This document shows positions 959 through 33,575 of a DNA stretch of 64,000 nt, one piece after another. Numbering within the stretch: the first letter of the stretch is position 1; the number at the start of each line of letters is the position of its first letter. The stretch comes from Rubritalea profundi. Its GTDB lineage: Bacteria > Verrucomicrobiota > Verrucomicrobiia > Verrucomicrobiales > Akkermansiaceae. The translations under genes were made by a program, and so were the position numbers. The DNA lies in contig NZ_MQWA01000001.1 of the NCBI RefSeq assembly GCF_002954445.1, positions 2,052,733 to 2,116,732 on the forward strand. The letters are read 5' to 3'. The notes beneath the pieces were generated by a model. It was not told where the DNA came from. It searched no databases and was given only the letters and a program-made list of their open reading frames with translations.

Positions 959-2470
959 TTAGTAACTACGTCCCCAAATGGCGCGGGTTTTGGTCGGTTT
1001 GCCAGTGAGGATACAAGGTGATTCTTCTCCGTCTTGCTGATCGAGTGGGAGACAGCGGATGGCGATTTTGTGCTTCTTGCTGAGAGTTTCCTCTTCCTCT
1101 GTGGTGCCAGCCCAAGGGGTGACGAGCCAGCCTGGGGATTCGCAGCTCCAGTGTTTTTCAAAGGTCGCTGGGTCTGAGCAGTCCTGTGTGTTAGCGTCGC
1201 GGAATGTTGCGGCGCGTTCGAGCAGTGTGTCTTGAATCTCCTGTAGGGTGCTCTCTACATTTTGTAAGAACTCTTCTTTGGCTAGGAATGCTTTCTCGTT
1301 AGATGGCTGATCGCGTCTTTGGAGGCAGACTTTGCGGCTCTCTAGATCGCGTGGTCCGATTTCGATGCGGATGGGCGCGCCTTTCTTGACCCACTCCCAC
1401 TTTTTCCCGCGAATGTCGCGCTTGTCGACGAGAACTCTGAGAGGCTCACCGTGGAAGTCTTTGCTGCGTAAAGTTTGAGCAAGGGCTTCACAGGCGTCGA
1501 TGACTGCATCGCGGGTGTCTTCTTTCGGAGTGACCGGGATGATGACGATTTGTTGGGAGGCTACACGTGGAGGCATGATGAGTCCGTCGTCATCAGAGTG
1601 TGCCATGATGAGTGTGCCTATCAGGCGTGTGGAGACGCCCCAAGAGGTGGTCCATGCGTGCTGGGTGGAGCCGTCGCGGCCAGTGAAAGAGATGTCTTGA
1701 ACCTTGGAGAAGTTTTGTCCGAGGAAATGGGAGGTGCCAGCTTGGATTGCTTTTTTATCCTGCACCATCGCTTCGACGGTGAGGGTCATGTCTGCACCGG
1801 GGAAGCGCTCGGCTTCTGATTTTTCACCTGGGATAGTTGGGATGGCGAGATGCTCGCGAAGGAATTTTTCGTAAATGGCATGCATTTGACGGGTTTCATC
1901 GAGGGCTTCCTGTTTCGTCTCGTGGGCAGTGTGGCCTTCTTGCCAAAGGAATTCTGCTGTGCGAAGGAACATGCGGGTGCGCATTTCCCAGCGCATGACG
2001 TTTGCCCATTGGTTGATGAGGAGTGGGAGATCGCGGTAGGATTCGGTCCAACGTGAGAAAGCGGCTCCGATGATAGTCTCAGAGGTCGGGCGGATGACGT
2101 ATGGCTCAGTGAGTTTGCCGGCTGGCTCCATTTTTGTGGTGCCATCATCTTGCTTGATCGCTTCTAAGCGGTGGTGTGTGACCACGGCGCATTCTGTGGC
2201 AAAGCCCTCCGCGCATTCTGCTTCTTTTTCAAAGTGGGAAAGTGGGATGAGGAGTGGGAAGTAGGCGTTCTGGTGGCCAGTTTGCTTAAAATATTTATCA
2301 AGCTGCTGCTGGATGTTTTCCCAGAGTGCGTAGCCCCAAGGCTTGATGATCATGCATCCACGCGTTTCTGAGTTCTCAGCTAGGTCAGCACCTTTGATAA
2401 CTTGCTGGTACCATTCTGGGAAGTCTTCTGAGCGCGTTGGTTGTATCGCTGTTTTCGCTTGCTTAGCCAT
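959..2470 (-). CDS. proS: Prolyl-tRNA synthetase, archaeal/eukaryotic-like (type 3)
   Basis: This 503-residue class II aminoacyl-tRNA synthetase charges tRNA-Pro. Residues YVIRPTSET, MRWEMRTRMFLRTAEFLWQEGHTAH and GVSTRLIGTLIM are the class II catalytic core (motifs 1-3). An anticodon-binding domain (VTPKEDTRDAV onward) and a zinc-like C-terminal domain ending in RAIWGRSY follow. There is no INS editing insertion between motifs 2 and 3, and the C-terminus ends in Tyr, both typical of the archaeal/eukaryotic ProRS form rather than the longer bacterial form. The ATG lies in a clean context, and the next gene upstream is divergent (2646). Confidence 0.95.
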   Translation of the reverse strand: MAKQAKTAIQPTRSEDFPEWYQQVIKGADLAENSETRGCMIIKPWGYALWENIQQQLDKYFKQTGHQNAYFPLLIPLSHFEKEAECAEGFATECAVVTHHRLEAIKQDDGTTKMEPAGKLTEPYVIRPTSETIIGAAFSRWTESYRDLPLLINQWANVMRWEMRTRMFLRTAEFLWQEGHTAHETKQEALDETRQMHAIYEKFLREHLAIPTIPGEKSEAERFPGADMTLTVEAMVQDKKAIQAGTSHFLGQNFSKVQDISFTGRDGSTQHAWTTSWGVSTRLIGTLIMAHSDDDGLIMPPRVASQQIVIIPVTPKEDTRDAVIDACEALAQTLRSKDFHGEPLRVLVDKRDIRGKKWEWVKKGAPIRIEIGPRDLESRKVCLQRRDQPSNEKAFLAKEEFLQNVESTLQEIQDTLLERAATFRDANTQDCSDPATFEKHWSCESPGWLVTPWAGTTEEEETLSKKHKIAIRCLPLDQQDGEESPCILTGKPTKTRAIWGRSY

Positions 2471-2645: not shown

Positions 2646-3278
2646 ATGAAAAAATCCAAACTCAAAATGCTGTTTTCAACAGCCGCACTTTTAGCTCTTT
2701 CCATGGCTGCGCCCGTGAATGCTCAAGCAGGGAGAGTGGAAGCGTCGGACCCTCAATTTAATAACATAGTGTCGCCAGAGTTAGGCGGCAATACTGGGTT
2801 TAAGAAATGGAAGCCCAAAGATTGGCTTGAGGCTGAGGTGAAGTTTCGGGTGGAGATGCCAAAGACCTATAAACAAAAGTATGTAGATAGTGTGACTGTG
2901 AAATGGTATGTGGCGATAGAGAATCCAACTGGGGCAGGCTACGCAATGCTAGAGAAGGAAGTGGAGTATGTGAATGTTCCTGTTGGCGAGGATGTCCACT
3001 CTTCAGTTTATTTGTCTCCATCAGCCATCATGAGAATTAGTGGTAGTGAGCGCGCTAGCAAAAGAGTAGTGAGCCACGTTGGGGGTGAGATTTTAGTGAA
3101 TGGGACTTCGCTGAAGATTAACAAGGGTCGTTACTTTACCTCTAAAGGTAAAATTGGCTGGTGGGTCAGCAGTAAGCTTTCTCGAAACGACAGCATCCCT
3201 CTCTTGAATAAGAACGAAACACCCTTCAAGTTTTTGTGGTGGGATCGTTATGCTGAAATCAAGCCTGAACGTCGCTAG
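2646..3278 (+). CDS. Secreted Amuc_1102-like component of the pilus-like cluster
   Basis: This 210-residue protein has a clear Sec signal peptide: KKSK, a hydrophobic run LFSTAALLALSMAAP, then a VNAQA cleavage-like site near residue 27. The mature part is predicted mostly beta (SVTVKWYVAIENP, VEYVNVPVGEDVH). I place it as the counterpart of Amuc_1102 because it directly precedes the PilM-like gene as in my memory of Akkermansia, and because of its size and the opening ASDPQFNNIVSPELGGN. It is probably periplasmic or surface-exposed. It heads the cluster, 77 bases before the PilM gene, with an imperfect hairpin (CTCAC/GTGAG) near 3301-3320 between them. Its function is not established. Confidence 0.75.
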   Translation: MKKSKLKMLFSTAALLALSMAAPVNAQAGRVEASDPQFNNIVSPELGGNTGFKKWKPKDWLEAEVKFRVEMPKTYKQKYVDSVTVKWYVAIENPTGAGYAMLEKEVEYVNVPVGEDVHSSVYLSPSAIMRISGSERASKRVVSHVGGEILVNGTSLKINKGRYFTSKGKIGWWVSSKLSRNDSIPLLNKNETPFKFLWWDRYAEIKPERR

Positions 3279-3355
3279 GCGGAATTAATTTTTGGATGGG
3301 CTCACTTCGTTTTCGTGAGTCCTAGAGGATACACTTTTAAAATAATTATACAATT

Positions 3356-5191
3356 ATGGCTGATCCACAGTCTATTATAACACTCAATATTGGCTCACAG
3401 ACAGTGAGTATGGGGCATTTCTCTCGTTCTAAGAACGGAGGCTTGATCCTAAAGGCCTACGAGACGACAGGAATTCTTGCTGATCCATCTGCCGAAATGA
3501 CACGTCTTCCACAGGTGCGATTGGCAGTGAGCGAGCTAGCTAGTAAGTTAGGCCTGAATAAGGATAAGGTCGATTACGCAATTTCAGGTCAATCGGTCTT
3601 CACGCGCTTTGTGAAGTTGCCGATGCTGGAGGACGATGACCTCGAGCAGTTGGTCGCATTCGAGGCTCAGCAGCATGTACCATTTCCTATCAATGAAGTG
3701 ATCTGGGATTGGCAGTTACTCGAGTCACCAGGCTCTGAACGTGAGGTCGTTCTCGTCGCTATCAAAGGGGATGCTCTGGATGAACTCAATGACTGTGTTA
3801 CTGACTCGGGTCTTAAGACTGGAGATGTAGACACCGCGCCAATGGCTCTAGCCAATGCATTTCTTTATAACTACGGAGACATTGGAGAGACTAGCCTATT
3901 GATCGACATCGGAGCACGTACTAGTAATCTTATTTATGTGGAAGGTAAGCGTGTGTTTACCCGGAGTATCGCTATCGGCGGAGCTGCGATCACTAGCGCT
4001 ATTTCTAAGGAGTATAATGTGCCATACATCGAGGCCGAGTCTCAAAAGGTGTCTAACGGCATGGTTGCTCTCGATACGCGGCATACATCAAGCATGGATG
4101 AGCTCACTGGAGCGCTGGCATCCTGTATTCGTACTTCTCTCAATCGTATGCCCGCGGAAATCGCGCGGACCACCAATTTCTACCGTAGCCAGCATGGCGG
4201 CAGCGCTCCTACGCGAGTCTTCCTCGCCGGAGGTGGATCTAACCTCCCTCGAGTTGGAGATTTCTTCCAGCAGAAGCTTCGTTTGCCAGTGGAGTATTTC
4301 AACCCACTTAAGCGAATTTCAGTAGGCCAAGAAATTGACGTGGATAAGGTGTCCGCACAGGCGCACCAGCTTGGTGAGCTTGTAGGTGTGGCACTACGCT
4401 CTATCGATAGCGCTCTAGTAAGTATTGATTTAGTTCCTGAAGTGGTTCAGAGCGAACGTGATGAGACTCGCCGCCGTCCATTTTTGATTGGCGCCGCCGC
4501 TGTTACTTTGGCTGCGTTTGCTACTTTGTATAACTCTAACTCGATGAAAGCGGGTGATGCTGAACGTAAGCTTAAAATTGTAAGCGAGCGCATTGACGGA
4601 CTCAATGACTTTGCTGAACCGATAGAAGACGAAGTCAAGCGAGAGGCAGTAATTCAGGAGTTTTCTGATCAATTTGTGCAGGCGCATTACGGACAAAGAT
4701 ATTGGCTGGAAGTGGTTGATGATCTTAAGCAACGCTTTGGTCATACTCATGTTTGGGTTACAGATGTGAGCCCTTTGATTAACTATCAAGTGGGTAGCGA
4801 GAAGCCCGCTGAGGAAGCCGTTCGTGGCGATTTTGCTGATTTACAGTATGGCGTCTCTGGGGTGATTGAGCCAAAGCTGGATGAGCCTGAGTTTTTGGCA
4901 CGAAATCGACCGAATAGGAATTATGTGGCACCTGAAATAAACGCTGTCAGAATCAAGGGTCTCTGGCGTGGATTTGGTGGCGCATCACGGGTGAACGATC
5001 TCGTTAAGATGCTTACATCCGAATCACATTTTTTCACTCTTGAAGTTGAAGATAAAAGTGGCAATAGGCCAGTAACAAGAACACTCACAGCTTCTGAATA
5101 CTCCGAAACTGAGAGTATGCTGAAGGAAGGCGATTTTGCGGCAACATTCACAGTGACCATACCACTTAAGAAACCATTACCTCTCCGATAA
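3356..5191 (+). CDS. pilM: PilM-PilN-like fusion protein (Amuc_1101 type)
   Basis: The 611-residue protein begins with an actin-like PilM ATPase domain (about 1-350). Visible landmarks are ITLNIGSQTVSMG, VAFEAQQHVPFPINEVIWDWQ, LLIDIGARTSNLIYVEG and RVFLAGGGSNLP, the phosphate- and nucleotide-binding segments of this family. A single hydrophobic segment (FLIGAAAVTLAAFATLY, about 378-394) then leads to a ~215-residue C-terminal region with a coiled-coil-like start, resembling PilN. Free PilM is only about 350 residues, so this looks like PilM fused to an inner-membrane PilN-like part. It should couple the cytoplasmic ring to the periplasmic alignment complex. It ends 4 bases before the next gene, so the block is an operon. 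Confidence 0.88.
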   Translation: MADPQSIITLNIGSQTVSMGHFSRSKNGGLILKAYETTGILADPSAEMTRLPQVRLAVSELASKLGLNKDKVDYAISGQSVFTRFVKLPMLEDDDLEQLVAFEAQQHVPFPINEVIWDWQLLESPGSEREVVLVAIKGDALDELNDCVTDSGLKTGDVDTAPMALANAFLYNYGDIGETSLLIDIGARTSNLIYVEGKRVFTRSIAIGGAAITSAISKEYNVPYIEAESQKVSNGMVALDTRHTSSMDELTGALASCIRTSLNRMPAEIARTTNFYRSQHGGSAPTRVFLAGGGSNLPRVGDFFQQKLRLPVEYFNPLKRISVGQEIDVDKVSAQAHQLGELVGVALRSIDSALVSIDLVPEVVQSERDETRRRPFLIGAAAVTLAAFATLYNSNSMKAGDAERKLKIVSERIDGLNDFAEPIEDEVKREAVIQEFSDQFVQAHYGQRYWLEVVDDLKQRFGHTHVWVTDVSPLINYQVGSEKPAEEAVRGDFADLQYGVSGVIEPKLDEPEFLARNRPNRNYVAPEINAVRIKGLWRGFGGASRVNDLVKMLTSESHFFTLEVEDKSGNRPVTRTLTASEYSETESMLKEGDFAATFTVTIPLKKPLPLR

Positions 5192-5195
5192 AACC

Positions 5196-6314
5196 ATGAG
5201 CTGGATACAGGAAAATAAATTTACGGCCGCTCTAGCAGGGGTCACCGCAGTTGGTTCAATCGCACTCATTTCCCTAGCGATGGGGAAAGGCGATGATATC
5301 GCTTCTGCACAGGCAAAATTGAAGAAAGCTCTCAGGAATGAGAAGAGTATTCAGAGTGTGCAGCCCTTTCCAAATAGAGAAAATTTGGAGCAAAAGCAAT
5401 CGACTGTGAACGATTACGAAAAAGGTGCAAGTGACCTGCAACGTCAATTCGCGGCATATCGCCCGAAAGCTGAAGAGGTTGAAGACTTTGCGTCAGATAA
5501 GTTCAGTGCAATCGTGAGTAGCTACCGCAACCGCTTAAATAAGAAATTTAAGAAGAATGAAGTCGAGTTGCCAGATCAATGTGTCTACGGTTTTGAGACT
5601 TACGCTAATAAGTTTCCTCGTTTCGAAGCTACGGGTGAGCTAAGTTATCAGATCAAAGCGATGGAGTGGTTGTTTGCCAAGTTGGCGAGCAATGAGCCCG
5701 AAGCGCTATTGAATGTAGTGCGCGCTAAATTTGATTTAGAGTCGGCACCAGTATCTGCCGGAAAAGCCAAAAAGGGCAAAAAGGGCAAAAACGTAAAGGC
5801 TGTTGTGAAAGAGCCTGCATACTATGTCATGCCGCTTGAGTTGTCATTCCGATCCGATGAGAAAGGGCTCTCAAATTTCCTGGAAGATATAGCTAACACG
5901 GATAAGTACCCATTCGTTATTCGCTCCATACGTATACAGAATGAGCGCATGACTCCACCTACGCAAGGTGATGCGAAGTTTGAGTCAGCAGCTCCTGCGG
6001 CGGGTGCTAATGATGCCTTTGGTTTTGCTGCTGATTTCCTCATCGATGATGATGGCGCTGAGGGAGATGGAGCTGCCGCTGCTGAGGATGCTGGAGCTCC
6101 AGTTCCAGCCGCGGCCGATGTGCCGATGGTAGGCTCCGATAGTGATGATACGCACCTGTTGAAGCCAGTTCTTGGTGATGAAAAGGTGAATGTCTTCCTC
6201 AAGCTTGATCTAATCTTATTGAATCAGTCGTTTGTGCTGACTCTTGATGAGCTTGAAGAGCTTGAAGAGCTTGAAGAAAAGGCAAAAATTGAACAATCTA
6301 GCTCAGCTAGCTAA
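5196..6314 (+). CDS. Amuc_1100-like inner-membrane/periplasmic pilus component
   Basis: This 372-residue protein has an N-terminal membrane anchor (ALAGVTAVGSIALISLAMG, about 12-31), a coiled-coil-like stretch (about 35-100) and a periplasmic domain with PilO-like character. It is longer than Amuc_1100 (about 317 residues). The extra length is low-complexity: a Lys-rich insert AGKAKKGKKGKNVKAV near 189, an Ala/Gly/Asp-rich stretch around 267-310, and a C-terminal run of LEE units encoded by tandem GAGCTTGAA copies at 6249-6278. The opening MSWIQENKF resembles the next protein's MSWLKENYE, suggesting related anchors. Assignment rests on order, size and topology; the known family is a PilN/PilO-like partner of PilM. 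Confidence 0.78.
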   Translation: MSWIQENKFTAALAGVTAVGSIALISLAMGKGDDIASAQAKLKKALRNEKSIQSVQPFPNRENLEQKQSTVNDYEKGASDLQRQFAAYRPKAEEVEDFASDKFSAIVSSYRNRLNKKFKKNEVELPDQCVYGFETYANKFPRFEATGELSYQIKAMEWLFAKLASNEPEALLNVVRAKFDLESAPVSAGKAKKGKKGKNVKAVVKEPAYYVMPLELSFRSDEKGLSNFLEDIANTDKYPFVIRSIRIQNERMTPPTQGDAKFESAAPAAGANDAFGFAADFLIDDDGAEGDGAAAAEDAGAPVPAAADVPMVGSDSDDTHLLKPVLGDEKVNVFLKLDLILLNQSFVLTLDELEELEELEEKAKIEQSSSAS

Positions 6315-6331
6315 CCTTACTTTTTAGAAAA

Positions 6332-7378
6332 ATGTCTTGGCTAAAAGAAAATTATGAAAAGGCGGCGCTCGGTGGAGCAGCAGCTATATTGGTTGGCGTC
6401 GTGGCCACGAGTTTCCTCGGTGAAGACGGGGGGCCTAGTGCTAAAGCTCTACCGGCGGATATTGACAATAGTCCTGGTGAGGAGTTACTCGCGGAGATGG
6501 CTGCGGTGTTAGAAGCTCGTGAGAAATCAGCTGAAATTCGTCCGAAATTAATTGATGGACGTGAGGTTGATTTATTCGTAGGTCAGCCACTCTACATGGC
6601 TGATGGATCCCTTGACCCAGTTGATATTTATGAGGGTCCAAACGTTCATAAAGGTATCACTAATAAGTGGTGGCGCGAGCACAGTATTGATCTAAGTTTT
6701 GCGAATGCGCCCGAGCGCGATCAAGATAAGGATGGTTTTACTAACCGTGAAGAGTTCGATGCGCAGACGGATCCAACAGATAAGGCTTCGTACCCATCCC
6801 CGCTGGTTAAAATTGTTGGTGAAAGCGTGGATGTTTTCAAGATGCAGATGCGCTGGAGCTCCTTTGACGAGAGCTCTATCACGATTTACTACCAAGACAC
6901 CAAGCCCACTCGCACTTTCAGTGAGCGTGTAAAACATGGGGCTTCGTTCTTTGTTAAAGAAGGAATGGATCCCAATAATCGTTTCGTGCTCGCATCTGGA
7001 TCTGCCAAAAAGGCTGGTCCTAACGGACGTGAGCAGGATACTTACGAAGTAGAAGATACCACGCCGCGCTTCAAAGGCACAGCTAAGCAGAACTTCACTT
7101 TGTTCCGCAGCGGTCCAAAAACTGGAGGCTTCAACGAAATCCAAGATCGCTCAGTGACCCTAACTTTGCACGCTCTCGGCCAAGAAGGATCCAGTTTTGT
7201 GGTCAAGGAACTCGAGAAATTTTCGCTCCCCTATGACCCAAAGGCGAAGAATGGCCCCTATCAGGTCACAAAAATCGAACCAATTGTTGGACAGGCCGAC
7301 GTGTTCACTGTCGAAATTGTTTGGCGTTTCGATGGTGGGTTAGAGGCTAAAACTCTTATTGTTCATAAGAAAAAATAG
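6332..7378 (+). CDS. Amuc_1099-like membrane-anchored periplasmic protein
   Basis: This 348-residue protein has an N-terminal anchor (AALGGAAAILVGVVATSFLG, about 11-30) and a long periplasmic part. Residues about 130-155 hold DQDKDGFTNREEFDAQTDP, a calcium-binding loop of the thrombospondin type 3/EF-hand kind, with acidic residues at alternating positions. The remainder is predicted beta-rich (VFKMQMRWSSFD, VFTVEIVWRFDGG). It lies 17 bases after the Amuc_1100-like gene and before the secretin, matching the third position of the Akkermansia cluster. A PilP/PilO-like bridge between inner-membrane complex and secretin is an inference from position. The calcium site suggests a structural metal. 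Confidence 0.72.
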   Translation: MSWLKENYEKAALGGAAAILVGVVATSFLGEDGGPSAKALPADIDNSPGEELLAEMAAVLEAREKSAEIRPKLIDGREVDLFVGQPLYMADGSLDPVDIYEGPNVHKGITNKWWREHSIDLSFANAPERDQDKDGFTNREEFDAQTDPTDKASYPSPLVKIVGESVDVFKMQMRWSSFDESSITIYYQDTKPTRTFSERVKHGASFFVKEGMDPNNRFVLASGSAKKAGPNGREQDTYEVEDTTPRFKGTAKQNFTLFRSGPKTGGFNEIQDRSVTLTLHALGQEGSSFVVKELEKFSLPYDPKAKNGPYQVTKIEPIVGQADVFTVEIVWRFDGGLEAKTLIVHKKK

Positions 7379-7503
7379 CATCCACTGTTAGTGAATCAGG
7401 CAAAGATAAAAATTAAATTAATAAAAATTTTCACAGAAATTGAAAGTTTCTGAAAAAAGAGCTTCACAAGCCCCCCTAAATTAGAAGAACCTACACACCA
7501 ATC

Positions 7504-10067
7504 ATGGAAAAAATACCTACGCATCGTTACAGTCGCACTGCTGCCATCCTTATGGCGGCGGCTGCAGTTATGCCGCTAGCATCCCATGTAGCACACGCTG
7601 ATTCCCTTGTTCAACAAGAGATCGCCCGTCGTGCTGCACAAGTGCAAGAAGCGGATGCAGCCCTACTTGACGGCCGAAAGCTTTACGCTGAAGGCAAGTT
7701 TGAAGAAGCTGTCGCGGAATACCGCAAAGCAATCAACCTGCTACCTTCAGGTCCAGTAGTAGCTGACCGACGTCACGCCTACACTGGTCATCTAGTAGAT
7801 GGCTCTATTGCACTCAGTCAGACCTATCGTCGTGTGGGCCGTTACGCTGATGCGCGCCAGACTCTTTCAGACGTCATAGCTAAAGATCCGCTCAATGTGG
7901 CAGCGAAACAGCAGTTAGAATACCTAGATGACCCAATTCGTACCAACCCAGCACTCACTTACGAACACACTCAGGATTCTGAGAAGGTGCGTAAGCAACT
8001 CTACCGTGCACAAGGTTATCGTGATCTAGGTAAGTACGATGAAGCCAAGGAAGAGTACAAAGAAATTCTTCGCGTTGACCGCTACAACGAAGCGGCGCGC
8101 CGTGGCATGGAAAAAATTGCGGACGTAAAGTCTGATTACTACCGTGCTGCATACGATCATACTCGTGCTGAGCTTCTGATGGAAGTTGATAAAGCGTGGG
8201 AGATCGCAGTTGCACCGAACGTAAACTTCTCTGAGGCTAGCGTGAACCCAACGATAGTTGATGTGACTGGTGCTCTGTACATCCGCCGGAAGCTCCAGAA
8301 TATCATTCTTCCTGTAGTCGATTTTCAGGATGTTACGGTTGATCAAGCTATCGATATCTTGCGCCTGCGCGCTCGTGAACTCGATACAATTGAGCTCGTG
8401 CCATCGAAGAGGGGTGTGAACTTCGTTGTTCGCACGCCTGCTGTGATTGATGCTGATGGAGATGCTGAAGCCGGTGAGTTCGGTGGAACGGCTAAGCTAG
8501 GCTCCCAGACTATCAGTTCACTTCAGTTGCGCAACGTACCTCTCGAGGTAGTTGTGAAGCAGATCTGTGATGTGACTAACTCCGTTACAAGGTGGAAGAC
8601 TATGCTGTAGTTCTCCTCCCCGCGACAGACTTTGATGACACAGAACTCTACACGCGCTTATTCACTGTGCCGCCAGATTTCTTGTCGCTTATGAGCGCTG
8701 GCGGTACTGGCGGTGGTGGTGCTAGCGACGATCCGTTTGGAGATGATGACGGTGGCGGTGGCGGCGCTCTCGCTCCGACTCGTCCAGTGAAAGATCTACT
8801 CACTGATTCTGGTGTGGTATTCCCAGAGGGGTCGACCGCGAGTTTCTCCAAAGCGCGTTCCGTACTCAGTGTGCGTAACACTGCAAATAACCTCGATATG
8901 ATCGAGTCCTTGGTAAATGGGATTAAAGATCAGCTGCCAAAGCAGATCCGCATGTCTACTAAGTTTGTGGAAATCAATCAAGAAAACACAGAAGAGCTTA
9001 GTTTTGACTGGATCCTTTCGCAAACTCCATTGAATAGTGCTGCAACTACCTTCCTTGGTGGTGGTACTAACGGTAACGGAGCTCCACGCAATGGTAGTGA
9101 CTTCGCTAACCCAGTGAATGGAGTTAATGTTCCCGGCCTCCCAGTTGATCCAGCAACTGGGGTGCGAAACATTGTCTCTGGTGGTAACCGTAGCGGTGAC
9201 TACGCGATCACACGTGATAGTATTGATTCATTCCTGAATAATCCTGACCGTGGCGCACAAGACACTTCAATAGCTCCAGGTATAATGTCTTTGACAGGTC
9301 TTTTTACTGATGGTCAGTTCCAAATGATTATGCGCGGACTCTCTCAGAAGAAAGGATCTGACATAATGACAGCTCCTAGCATTGTTGCTAAATCTGGTCA
9401 GACAGCGACTATCGAGATCATCCGTGAGTTTATCTACCCTACTGAGTACGAACCACCTCAGCTTCCGAATTCCACTGGTGGTGGTGGTAATGGTGGTGGT
9501 AATGGTGGTGTTGTGGTGCAAGCTAACGTCTTCCCTGTGACTCCAGCTACTCCGACTGCGTTCGAAACTCGTAACACTGGTGTGACTCTCGAAGTGGAGC
9601 CTACTCTCGGTGATAATGATTACACCATCGATCTGCGTTTCGCTCCTGAGATTGTTGATTTCGAAGGCTTCATCAACTATGGATCACCGATTCAGAGTAC
9701 GGCAACAGATGCTCTCGGTAACCCAGTGATTATTACCATTACTGAAAACCGCATCGAAATGCCAGTATTCTCTACGCGTAAGGTAAACACAGGCCTCACA
9801 ATCTACGATGGTCACACTGTGGCAGTTGGTGGATTGATGCGTGAAGAAGTGCAGACCGTAGAAGATAAAGTGCCTATACTTGGTGACCTTCCTCTCATCG
9901 GGCGTCTCTTCCAGTCTAATGCTGAAAATCACACCAAGAGTAACCTTATCATCTTTGTGTCAGTGAATGTCATTGATGCCACTGGTCGGTCAGTGCGTAA
10001 CTCAATGGGGGAGCCTACTGAATTTAATTCAACAAGTGGTGGTGGCGTGCTTCCCCCACTGAATTAA
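7504..10067 (+). CDS. Type II/IV secretin with TPR N-terminus, frame broken near 8583
   Basis: Two overlapping frames (7504-8610 and 8592-10067) make one protein of about 854 residues. At 8581 the frame reads TCC GTT ACA; adding one C to the CC at 8582-8583 gives TCC CGT TAC AAG GTG GAA, joining CDVTNS to RYKVEDYAVVLLP. Order of domains: signal peptide (about 1-33), TPR repeats (LYAEGKFEEAVAEYRKAI; YRDLGKYDEAKEEYKEIL), N0/STN-like region, N1 region spanning the break, Gly/Asp linker, and the secretin barrel with LTIYDGHTVAVGGLMREE and VPILGDLPLIGRLFQ. It forms the outer-membrane pore (Amuc_1098 type). An 11-base-pair terminator follows, closing the operon. Confidence 0.9.
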
Positions 10068-10095
10068 TTCAGCAAAATTCATTGATTGATTTACA

Positions 10096-10130
10096 AGCGG
10101 GGTAGCACTATGTGGCTGCCCCGCTTCTTT
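10096..10130 (+). terminator. Terminator closing the pilus-like operon
   Basis: AGCGGGGTAGC pairs with GCTGCCCCGCT over eleven pairs (one G-U) around an eight-base loop, followed by TCTTTT. The upstream alternative start of coaE at 10112 lies inside this hairpin, which argues for the later coaE start. Confidence 0.85.
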
Positions 10131-10135
10131 TATGT

Positions 10136-10741
10136 ATGACAATGCGTGTACTTGGACTGACGGGCGGGATCGCTACAGGTAAGTCAACTTGTGTGGAGAT
10201 TTTACGCTCCCTCGATCCACACATTGTTATTTTTGATGCGGACCAATGTGTGGCAGAACTCTATCAGAGGGCCGATGTTGCAGCTGCTTTGGTGAGACTC
10301 GTAGGAGAGTCTGCATATTTGGAAAATGCCGAGTTGAATCGAGCCTATCTGCGCGAACGAATGTTTGCAGAACCTGAGCTTAGACGGGAGATTCAGAATT
10401 TGATTCACCCCTTGGTGAGAAAAGAATGTCTTGTCAGTTTGGAAATCGCGTCTAAAACCATTGGGACGACATCGTTCATTGCAGACGTGCCCCTTTTGTT
10501 TGAAGGAGCCTTTGACTTCGGTCAGGATGCAAATCTGGTGGTCACTGTATCGCGCGAGACGCAAGAGCAGCGACTGATGATGAGAAGCGGATTCGATGTC
10601 GCGACTGTCCATGCCATTCTTGAGGCGCAACTTCCCATTTCTCATAAGGAGAAGTGTGCCGACGTTGTGTTCTGGAATGAGGGGCCTAAATATGTGTTAG
10701 AAGCACAGCTAAAACGATTTATAGAAAATAATTACCGATGA
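10136..10741 (+). CDS. coaE: Dephospho-CoA kinase
   Basis: The last step of coenzyme A synthesis: ATP-dependent phosphorylation of the ribose 3'-hydroxyl of dephospho-CoA. From the ATG at 10136 the protein has 201 residues, normal for CoaE. The P-loop GLTGGIATGKST lies at about residues 6-17, followed by IFDADQCVAELY (substrate aspartate), IHPLVRKE and FIADVPLLFEGAFD, all typical of the family. The frame is open back to 10112, but that start falls inside a terminator stem, so 10136 or 10142 is preferred. Its TGA overlaps the ATG of rho (ATGA), indicating translational coupling. Confidence 0.93.
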   Translation: MTMRVLGLTGGIATGKSTCVEILRSLDPHIVIFDADQCVAELYQRADVAAALVRLVGESAYLENAELNRAYLRERMFAEPELRREIQNLIHPLVRKECLVSLEIASKTIGTTSFIADVPLLFEGAFDFGQDANLVVTVSRETQEQRLMMRSGFDVATVHAILEAQLPISHKEKCADVVFWNEGPKYVLEAQLKRFIENNYR

Positions 10742-12096
10742 GTGAAGAAAATCAATCAGCAGAAGATGAGCCGGCTCCGGAGGAGTTAGTGCAACAATCT
10801 CAGCCGACCCCAGAGGTGGCAAAGGAAGAACCTATTGTGGTTCCTGAATTTATTTGTGTGAATGAATTCCGCGTGAAGCCCTTGGCTGAGCTCCACGATA
10901 TAATCGAGTCCTTGCCTGTGCGCTCACAGCCAACGGCAACTAAAAGCCAACTCATTTTTGATATTTTGAGCTTCTACGCGAAGCATGGTTCAGTGCTGGA
11001 AGGTGAAGGTTACATGGAGCAGGCCAAGGACAACTACGCGATGTTGCGTGATCCGATCCGTTCTTTCAAAACCTCACCAGACGATCTCTATATAGGTGGT
11101 GAGCTTATCCGTAATCACGGACTTTTAGTGGGTCAGCGTATCAAGGTGCGCATGCGTGCTCCTCGTGGGCGTGATAAATACCTCTCAGCAATGGAGATTC
11201 TCGAGATCGAGGGGCTCGCAGTCGGAGATTATTTAAAACCAAAAGATTTCGATAAGTTGACACCGATGTTCCCGAATGAGCGAATCATTCTGGAAAACGG
11301 GAAAGAAGGTGGATTGGGTGTCCGCTTAGTTGATCTCGTTGCTCCACTAGGAAAAGGTCAACGCGGCTTGATTGTTGCCCCTCCGCGTGGAGGTAAAACT
11401 ATTTTGCTCAAGCAAATTGCAAAATCAGTTAAAGCAAACCATCCCGAAATCGAATTGATTATTCTCCTTCTGGACGAGCGTCCTGAGGAGGTGACTGACT
11501 TCGAAGAAACTGTGGATGCGCATATTTTTAGTTCCACATTTGACGAGCCAGCTCGCCGTCACGCGCAAGTGGCAGACTTAGTGCTAGAGCGTGCAAAGCG
11601 GCTTGTTGAACTTGGTAAGGATGTTGTTCTTTTGCTCGACTCCCTCACAAGACTCGCTCGAGGTCATAACAATGCTCAGAGCGGTGGCCCCATCGGTAGT
11701 GGGGGTATAAACCCGGCGGCGCTTCAGAAGTCCCGTAAGTTCTTCGGAGCTGCACGGAATGTTGCAGAAGGTGGAAGCCTGACGATCCTAGCAACGGCAC
11801 TCGTCGAGACTGAGAGCCGCATGGATGAAGTTATTTTTGAAGAATTTAAAGGAACTGGAAATATGGAGATCAGGCTGGATCAGGATTTGGCCGAACGCCG
11901 AATCTACCCAGCGATCCATATCCCGCAGAGTGGAACTCGAAATGATGATCGACTCTATCACCCAGATGAAATGCGCGCCGTCTTAGAAATTCGTCGAGTC
12001 TTGGCAGCTCTGCCTGTAGGTGACTCAATCATGACCTTATTGAAGGCTTTGGATAAGACTCAGAACAATACTGAGTTGTTGTTGAAGGGCTTATAA
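10738..12096 (+). CDS. rho: Transcription termination factor Rho
   Basis: This 452-residue hexameric RNA helicase ends transcription at Rho-dependent sites. An acidic Glu/Pro-rich N-terminal extension (about 1-40) precedes the Rho N-domain, the CSD-like RNA-binding region ([21 protein letters not shown]) and the RecA-like core. That core carries Walker [20 protein letters not shown], Walker [18 protein letters not shown], the Q-loop [16 protein letters not shown] and the R-loop [21 protein letters not shown]. It overlaps coaE by four bases and is followed 45 bases later by RNase D. A short, ordinary Rho apart from the acidic tail at the front. Confidence 0.97.
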
Positions 12097-30952: not shown

Positions 30953-33575
30953 ATGGTAGAAAAGTATCCATGGAATGAGGTGGGGGATGCTCTTTTACAG
31001 AGTTTGTCATCATCATGGAGTGCGGGACTGACGATAGAGGAGGCTGATAGTAGGCTCACTAAGTATGGTCCGAATAAGCTACAAACACATGTGGCGAGGA
31101 GCTGGCTAGCTATATTTTTTAGCCAATTTAAAAGCCTTCTGGTCCTGTTGTTAGCGGTGGCTTCAGGATTGGCATTTCTGTTTCATGACTGGATCGAAGG
31201 GCTGGCGATCTGTGCGGTGTTGGTGTTGAATGCTGTGATCGGATTTTTTACCGAGCTGAATGCGGTGCGTACGATGGACTCTCTGCGGAAATACAATAAG
31301 TCGTTTGTCCGAGTGAGGCGAGGTGGTGGTGTGAAAGTGGTCTCTGCTGAGGAGATAGTTCCGGGGGATGTCATCCTGGCTGAGGGCGGTGATTTGATAG
31401 CGGCGGATATGCGAATTCTTTCTTGTTCTCGTCTTCAGGCTGATGAGTCAGCTCTCACTGGGGAGTCATTTCCAGTGGACAAGCAATGTGGTGTGCTGCC
31501 AAACGACACCATGCTAGCAGAGCGAACTAACATGCTTTATAAGGGCACGTCTCTGACACGGGGTTCATGTGAAGCCATCGTAATGACCACTGGAATGATG
31601 ACTGAGCTAGGGGAAATCTCTGCGCTGGTGATTTCGACAGAGGATGAAGAAACGCCCCTTGAAAAGAGGTTGGCACGGCTTAGCAGAAAACTGGTCGTAG
31701 TCACGGTGGTTATCGCACTTTCCATTCTTATTACTGGACTGATGCGTGGAAGAGATCTTTACCTGATGATCGAGACGTCTATCGCTCTAGCTGTGGCCGC
31801 CATACCTGAAGGGTTGCCGATTATTGCGACACTTGCTCTGGCGCGTGGCATGTGGCGCATGGCCCGCAGCAATGCTCTCATTAATAATCTGTCAGCTGTG
31901 GAAACTCTTGGTGCCACGAATGTCATTTGCACAGATAAGACCGGCACACTGACGGAAAATAAGATGGTGGTTGCCTCAATAGTGACGAAGCAGGGACTGG
32001 ATGATTTGGCGGGAGATCAAAAGGGACTAGAGTCTACGGCTGAAGTTCTTCGGGTCGCGTCACTTTGTAACAATGCTCAGTGGACTGGGCTTGAGGGGGG
32101 CGAGGATTCAGAGCTTATTGGTAGCCCGATGGAAACGTCGTTGTTAGTAGCTGCGAGGGGGTGCGGGCTTGATCAGAACGAGCTCAAACGTAGATTCCAT
32201 CGCGTCCGGGAAGAGGCCTTTGATTCGGAAAGCAAGATGATGGCGACGTATCACCGTGACGGTGATCAGTTCCTAATCGCGGTGAAAGGAGCGGCTGAGC
32301 CATTGCTGTCTGCTTGTCAAACTGTGTATACAGGGCAGCAGTTTCAACCTATGTTTGAGGAGGAGAGACAATGGTGGTTGGATAAAAATAACGCACTGGC
32401 TCTCGACGGTTTTCGAGTGCTGGCATTTGCTCAGAAATATGCTCGGCAGGAGGGTGTAGAACCGTATGAGAATCTGGAGTTTCTTGGGCTTGCGTGCGTG
32501 ATTGATCCGCCTAGGAAGGATATCCCTGCGGCCATAGCGTCTTGCCGAAATGCAGGGATTCGAGTGGTGATGATCACGGGAGACCAGGCTGGTACAGCTT
32601 TGCATGTAGCAAAGGATGTGGGAATCTATGATGAGGTCGCGACGAGGGTGGTCACAGGCAAGCAGATCGACACGTGTCAGAAGGCTGGTCAAATGGAGGA
32701 CCTCCTCGATGTCAAAGTGTTTGCGCGGGTGTCACCCCAGCACAAGCTCGACATTATTCAGATGCATCAAGATGATGGCTCGGTGGTGGCAATGACCGGA
32801 GATGGAGTGAATGATGCTCCGGCCTTAAAACGTGCAGATATCGGCGTGGCTATGGGAATACGTGGAACGGAGGTGGCGCGAGAGTCCGCTGACATGGTGC
32901 TAAGATGATTCCTTTACTTCTATTGTTGCCGCGGTTGCCCAAGGGAGGGTTATTTTTAACAATATCCGCAAGTTTGTGGTCTATTTACTCTCGTGTAACT
33001 TGAGTGAGGTTATGGTGATTGGGATAGCTTCGGCGATGGATGCTCCGCTGCCTTTATTGCCACTCCAAATTCTGTTCTTAAATATGGTCACGGATGTTTT
33101 TCCGGCCCTAGCCTTAGGAGTTTGCCATGGTCATGAGGATGTGATGGCTAGGCCGCCTAGATCGGTGCGAGATCCTATTGTTGGCAAGCGGCAATGGTGG
33201 GTAATCATGCTCTACAGCATTTTGATTACAGTTGTTGTACTCGGTTCATTTACTATTGCTAGGGGGAGTATGGGGATGTCTACTGAGGAGGCGGTGACGG
33301 TTTCCTTCTTGGTGATTGCTTTGGCCCAGATTCTCCATGTGTTTAATATGGCTGAGCCTGGGAGTCACCCGTTTAAAAATGAGATCACTAAAAATGGATA
33401 TGTGTGGGCAGCGGTTGTGCTGTGTGGATTGATCCTTTATTTTGCCCTGAGTTTGCCGCCACTAGCGAGAGTTCTAGCTCTGCAGGCGCCTAGTGCTGGT
33501 GGCTTTGTTTTGATAGTCATATCAAGTGCTATCCCTCTCATTGTTGGCAGGGTGGTGAGTATGATTAAGCGGTGA
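30953..33575 (+). CDS. Cation-transporting P2A-type ATPase, frame broken near 32903
   Basis: A calcium/cation pump of the SERCA/MgtA class, about 873-874 residues when restored. The first frame ends ...RGTEVARESADMVLR at TGA 32906; the sequence resumes in another frame as DDSFTSIVAAVAQGRVIFNNIRKFVVYLLSCNLSEV and continues to 33575. The shift equals one extra or two missing bases around 32903. Motifs: N-terminal cation ATPase domain, DESALTGESFPVDK (actuator TGES), AAIPEGLPIIATLALARGM (helix M4), phosphorylation site ICDKTGTLTENK-type ICTDKTGTLTENK, DPPRKDIPAAIASC, MITGD and TGDGVNDAPALKRADIGVAMG. Whether it is a live gene depends on the frame break. Confidence 0.9.

Follow-up and report, generated by a model that had tools for sequence, protein, structure and literature searches.

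Amuc_1100 is under development as a health-promoting protein. A five-gene cluster containing an ortholog of it lies in a Rubritalea genome, within the 64-kb stretch of DNA that was analyzed here as a whole (the window), and this raises the question of what the cluster builds and whether it is a trait of gut bacteria. The preliminary description of this DNA placed the cluster outside Akkermansia. The genus is indeed a different one, and NCBI taxonomy assigns Rubritalea to Rubritaleaceae; GTDB, however, assigns the genome to Akkermansiaceae, the same family as Akkermansia, so that the step outside Akkermansia is only a short one. We take GTDB's Akkermansiaceae to be the family that holds the window genome together with Persicirhabdus. 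The name is used likewise in PMC13174399. That paper (ISME J, April 2026) described conserved synteny of the locus in aquatic Akkermansiaceae and Verrucomicrobiales, with coaE (dpck) and rho (ttfr) alongside. The core idea is thus already published for Akkermansiaceae, coaE and rho neighbors included; our additions are an apparent PilM-PilN fusion, a calcium-type loop, the phylum-wide gene order, a motor assignment, and the diagnosis of a frameshift.

Five orthologous genes in a conserved order

The features of the locus are as follows (bit scores refer to NCBIfam models, with curated equivalog cut-offs in parentheses; that of the Amuc_1098 secretin is 750 bits).

959..2470, minus strand: proS, divergent, upstream; neighbor conserved in Rubritalea and Persicirhabdus
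2646..3278, plus strand: Amuc_1102 (MUL2A) ortholog, 210 aa; NF042424, 258.5 bits (cut-off, 55); 7dsz, E = 1.3e-32
3356..5191, plus strand: Amuc_1101 ortholog, 611 aa; NF045709, 861.5 bits (cut-off, 650)
5196..6314, plus strand: Amuc_1100 ortholog, 372 aa; NF038287, 382.5 bits (cut-off, 180); 6lad, E = 1.1e-17; family profile, E = 6.2e-69
6332..7378, plus strand: Amuc_1099 ortholog, 348 aa; NF042425, 222.1 bits (cut-off, 50)
7504..8610, plus strand: N-terminal part of the Amuc_1098 secretin (TPR repeats, N-domains); NF042912, 390.5 bits, model positions 1 to 345; TPR matches
8577..8580, plus strand: one-base deletion breaking the secretin frame, from comparison with relatives; probable assembly error
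8592..10067, plus strand: C-terminal part of the Amuc_1098 secretin (secretin domain); NF042912, 696.3 bits, model positions 347 to 805; PF00263, E = 1.9e-30
10095..10126, plus strand: intrinsic terminator after the five-gene unit; 12 pairs, 8 of them G-C, T-rich tail; fold z, -4.17
10112..10741, plus strand: coaE (dephospho-CoA kinase), likely true start at 10142; downstream neighbor in A. muciniphila too
10738..12096, plus strand: rho transcription termination factor; downstream neighbor in A. muciniphila too

Judged from these matches, the five genes are orthologs of Amuc_1102, 1101, 1100, 1099, and 1098, and four of the five products (1102, 1101, 1100, and 1099) lie above the curated cut-offs; sequence matches to solved structures of Amuc_1102 (7dsz) and Amuc_1100 (6lad) point the same way. 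The open reading frames (ORFs) and NCBIfam matches bear out the order 1102-1101-1100-1099-1098 on one strand, as proposed in the preliminary description, and its strong closing terminator is also present: the site 3' of the secretin outranks all other terminator-like sites in the region. An Rfam search of the window returned no RNA families, and the repeats found in the cluster region were limited to glycine-rich and short chance matches.

The MUL2 locus (Amuc_1098 to Amuc_1102) of A. muciniphila and aquatic Akkermansiaceae is alike in its five families, their order and strand, and the downstream coaE-rho pair. Most members are 24 to 47% identical to those of A. muciniphila MUL2, from which the Rubritalea cluster differs in an Amuc_1100 that is 55 aa longer, a secretin frame that is broken in the assembly, and proS upstream. 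The coaE and rho flank had been regarded as distinguishing, a reading that we rejected: the A. muciniphila cluster is followed by both genes at the same place, and the flank is therefore shared rather than a contrast. Both genes lie downstream in 24 loci, that of A. muciniphila included, and were undetected in the flanking DNA examined of many other Akkermansiaceae. The Amuc_1100 protein, described earlier as enlarged, is so relative to A. muciniphila (372 versus 317 aa) but falls inside the family range of 292 to 386 aa (median, 332 aa), with 5 of 49 members, the window's own counted, reaching at least 372 aa.

All five genes are held by 67 of 80 named loci, and these 67 show the same order and strand without exception; 12 others hold just the first two, three, or four genes and may break off at contig ends, and the Rubritalea marina locus lacks 1099. 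The closest named locus is that of R. marina DSM 17716 (identity of 90% for proS and 83% for rho). At a threshold of E <= 0.001, an Amuc_1100-like protein was found in 149 of 195 Verrucomicrobiota genomes, representing 87 of 108 genera; about 108 of the 149 genomes fall below 1e-9, and only 16 are above the curated Amuc_1100 cut-off. The 1101-1100-1099 order recurs in all 12 loci examined outside the taxonomic order. No Amuc_1100-like protein was present in the five sampled members of one family, which we would guess to be the absence from Methylacidiphilales reported in PMC13174399. The shared order (67 of 67 loci) and the spread across the phylum support the earlier suggestion that the cluster encodes a conserved verrucomicrobial envelope machine and is not a gut-specific trait. 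The order is shared with Akkermansia, and the proteins encoded at 5196 and 6332 match Amuc_1100 and Amuc_1099, so that neither of the observations named beforehand as refuting the suggestion was made.

A probable PilM-PilN fusion and two anchored proteins

Amuc_1101 consists of a PilM domain (residues 1 to 350), a PilN docking motif (355 to 361), a membrane/coiled helix (362 to 461), and a predicted (abb)2 periplasmic domain (466 to 609). The N-terminal domain matches PF11104 (E = 5.9e-35) and PilM structures (E = 1.9e-38), with PilM models as its best matches, and its predicted structure reaches a VIA Z score of 34.9 to 2ych (PilM fold). In the AF2 model (pLDDT, 86.5), a long helix is followed by elements in the order a-bb-a-bb. 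The phmmer match to 5eou, an engineered PilM fused to PilN residues 1 to 12, runs past PilM into the PilN part (SALVSIDLVP in the window versus SGMARINLLP), aligning window residues 355 to 361 (SIDLVP) with the PilN residues INLLP. A docking-type motif occurs in 52 of 52 relatives, with an RRKPFLI-type stretch and then a membrane helix after it. For the C-terminal half, Pfam gave no PilN family match above noise (best T2SSM value, 0.047, in 3 of 52 members), a PDB sequence search with its profile gave no match, and profile comparisons with Amuc_1100 and with a PilN-like protein of the same genome were not significant. Taken as a whole, Amuc_1101 appears to be a natural fusion of PilM and PilN, laid out like GspL.

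Amuc_1102, judging by its leader, is exported by a signal-peptidase-I type route, and its N-terminus is not that of a type IV pilin: leaders in its relatives end in A/S/G-Q at signal-peptidase-I type sites, and a domain search found no N_methyl domain in the window's protein.

The N-termini of Amuc_1100 and Amuc_1099 are alike, both having uncleaved hydrophobic anchors (MSWI..NK and MSW...NYEK, respectively); that of Amuc_1100 spans residues 9 to 31 or so. Crystal structures of Amuc_1100 contain two abb motifs resembling those of pilus and type II secretion system (T2SS) proteins (PMC13119276), and the protein is usually labelled as an outer-membrane pilus protein (PMC5332112). Two abb motifs together with an anchor fit PilO and inner-membrane anchoring and sit awkwardly with the outer-membrane label; Pfam returned no PilO match. 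Strongly diverged Amuc_1100 proteins, with E values of roughly 1e-22 to 1e-33 and scores under the curated cut-off, were also seen in seven apparent Akkermansia genomes and may explain the published claim that the protein is absent from A. glycaniphila.

In Amuc_1099, a calcium-type loop (DxDxDGxxxxxE) is invariant across 50 of 50 sequences, 40 of which match TSP3_bac. The C-terminal part of its AF2 model (pLDDT, 83) is beta-rich, and the second-ranked VIA hit is PilP of the Myxococcus machine (3jc8; Z, 5.8 over 70 residues; rmsd, 3.2), which is below the clear level. Neither a PilP family match in Pfam nor a match in a PDB sequence search with the Amuc_1099 profile was obtained. A PilP counterpart is only suggested by the model, because Foldseek found no significant match to it.

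A broken secretin frame

The preliminary description called the cluster complete. The secretin, however, is divided into two ORFs (7504 to 8610 and 8592 to 10067) by the one-base deletion near 8577 to 8580. The two parts match the secretin model colinearly, each falling below the cut-off because of the frameshift. Relatives read ICxxT-x-LRYxVEDYAV in a single frame, and the window is one base short after the ACT codon near 8577. When the assembly was compared with a same-genus genome, 10 of 219 orthologs were frameshifted, versus 0 of 228 in the reverse test. Since frameshifts are thus spread over the assembly, the break is most likely a residual assembly error, and "complete" is true only on this likely reading. 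Programmed frameshifting was rejected: the site lacks a slippery heptamer, the gene is read without any shift in relatives, and frameshifts occur assembly-wide.

Decay in this strain, i.e., a true loss-of-function mutation in the secretin comparable to the R. marina deletion, would be in keeping with a one-base deletion that likewise breaks a PilB gene elsewhere in the genome, and with the in-frame deletion fusing 1100 to the secretin C-terminus in R. marina DSM 17716. It is nevertheless improbable, given the assembly-wide frameshifts and the splitting of a P-type ATPase gene in the same window.

Two further observations concern these disrupted genes. The P-type cation ATPase (30953 to 33575) forms two ORFs in different frames, split near 32905 to 32976, which is another probable assembly frameshift. 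In R. marina DSM 17716 (L111:12381-14000), the first ~115 residues of the Amuc_1100 homolog are joined in frame to the C-terminal part of the secretin in a 539-aa ORF; the bulk of 1100 is missing, as are 1099 in its entirety and the N-terminus of the secretin, and the join represents either a real deletion or an assembly collapse.

Candidate motor genes elsewhere in the genome

The 64-kb window contains no T2SSE ATPase and no N_methyl pilin, consistent with the earlier statement that pilin, PilB, and PilT genes are missing from it. Outside the window, a PilB-PilB-PilC-pilin-like locus lies at C1:3707.5-3713 kb, and a PilT/PilU pair at 54.7 to 58.2 kb adjoins a second, intact, divergent Amuc_1098-family secretin (C1:51941-54223; L049:9932-12385; 855.6 bits). 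In A. muciniphila, two PilB genes, the only PilC gene, and a pilin signature lie together, and the genome has one PilT/PilU pair and two Amuc_1098-family secretins. The Rubritalea genome holds three more secretin/ATPase/GspF loci (C1:386-402 kb, 2876-2893 kb, and 3913-3929 kb), of which one includes PilN-like and T2SS-K proteins and another carries a PilT of its own; the genome thus has several pilus or secretion systems in parallel, and the motor assignment accordingly rests on elimination in A. muciniphila. By this elimination, the PilB-PilB-PilC-pilin locus and the PilT/PilU pair are the candidate drivers of the cluster, and the PilT/PilU pair might instead serve the second secretin, or both secretins. 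PilT exceeded its cut-off in 20 of 20 cluster-bearing genomes versus 13 of 20 without the cluster, a contrast that is uncorrected for shared ancestry and hence lends weak support.

A second Amuc_1098-family secretin also occurs in most of the relatives searched, as well as in A. muciniphila. In the Rubritalea genome, the second secretin locus is followed by two proteins without family matches, a MoxR-type ATPase, and a DUF58-like protein.

A proposed dispersed pilus-like machine and alternative readings

We consider it probable that the five genes encode the part of a dispersed type IV-pilus-like machine that comprises its alignment complex and secretin, with the motor supplied in trans. Such a machine would span both membranes. 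In Amuc_1101, the PilN docking peptide would connect a cytoplasmic actin-like domain with a membrane helix followed by a periplasmic domain (the GspL layout); Amuc_1100 would take the place of PilO, and Amuc_1099 that of PilP, with the calcium-type loop added. Amuc_1098, which is abundant in the outer membrane of A. muciniphila (PMC4960237), would be a PilQ secretin with built-in TPR repeats, and Amuc_1102, rather than being a classical pilin, would be an exported partner located in the periplasm or at the cell surface. The PilB-PilB-PilC-pilin locus would supply the extension ATPases, platform protein, and pilin-like gene, and the PilT/PilU pair next to the second, divergent secretin would provide retraction. 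The secretin would be the passage for extension and retraction of the putative filament of this cluster, which would probably help the cell attach to glycans or particles and take them up. Orthology, the order of the genes, the identity of the PilM domain and of the secretin, the docking motif, and the presence of motor genes elsewhere in the genome are established here; the PilN, PilO, and PilP roles, the pairing of this motor with this secretin, and the function in attachment are inferred. With PilMNOPQ of type IVa pili (Pseudomonas, Myxococcus, and Thermus), the cluster has in common the PilM fold, the PilN docking peptide, the secretin, and the logical order M-N-O-P-Q; it differs in that a single protein combines PilM and PilN, no O or P counterpart is recognizable from sequence, and secretin TPR repeats, the 1099 calcium-type loop, and the extra gene Amuc_1102 are present. 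No sequence families link 1100, 1099, or the C-terminal half of 1101 to PilO, PilP, or PilN, respectively.

The fusion of an actin-like with a ferredoxin-type domain is also common to GspL, and the cluster could be read as a type II-like secretion system that exports folded enzymes by means of a short pseudopilus, with 1101 as GspL, 1100 as GspM, 1099 as GspC, and 1098 as GspD. The motor genes lean the same way: the motor ATPase scores 594.6 for GspE versus 577.8 for PilB (below both cut-offs), the platform protein scores slightly better for GspF, and the pilin-like gene matches T2SSG. However, the best matches of the 1101 N-terminal domain are PilM models, NF045709 is itself named PilM-like, and another locus of the genome holds T2SS-K and PilN/GspL-like genes. 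Unlike a type II secretion operon, moreover, the cluster includes neither gspE nor gspF nor a pseudopilin gene (the window is devoid of T2SSE and N_methyl genes), and PilT retraction ATPases, which a T2SS does not need, accompany it in all 20 cluster-bearing genomes tested; we therefore regard this reading as unlikely. A fixed scaffold (MUL2) for attachment and glycan import, in which Amuc_1102 on the outer face binds glycans, the secretin serves as a pore, and no dynamic filament is made, has a small chance of being correct. It would account for a cluster that carries no motor gene and for an exported Amuc_1102 with a pilin-like fold, and PMC13174399, citing Davey 2023, ties the locus to attachment and uptake of mucin and fucoidan. 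A PilM-type cytoplasmic actin-like component, on the other hand, fits coupling to a motor, and in A. muciniphila the PilB-PilB-PilC-pilin set and the PilT/PilU pair are each retained in exactly one copy.

Implications for Amuc_1100 and the phylum

Extending the dispersed pilus-like machine to the whole phylum, we tentatively propose, at somewhat short of even odds, that an ancestral pilus machine, rearranged so that PilM and PilN form one permanently fused protein, is common to Verrucomicrobiota, with an invariant calcium-type loop in its PilP-like protein and its motor encoded elsewhere; Amuc_1100 would then be an inner-membrane-anchored PilO counterpart facing the periplasm and not a surface pilin. 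The likely motor genes are named here, and the literature surveyed does not place them with the locus. The conserved anatomy suggests that Amuc_1100 is instead the PilO-like component of a pilus machine that the phylum shares and that is found to a large extent in free-living bacteria. The native job of Amuc_1100 would thereby be separated from its effects on the host, and marine relatives would offer test systems for it.
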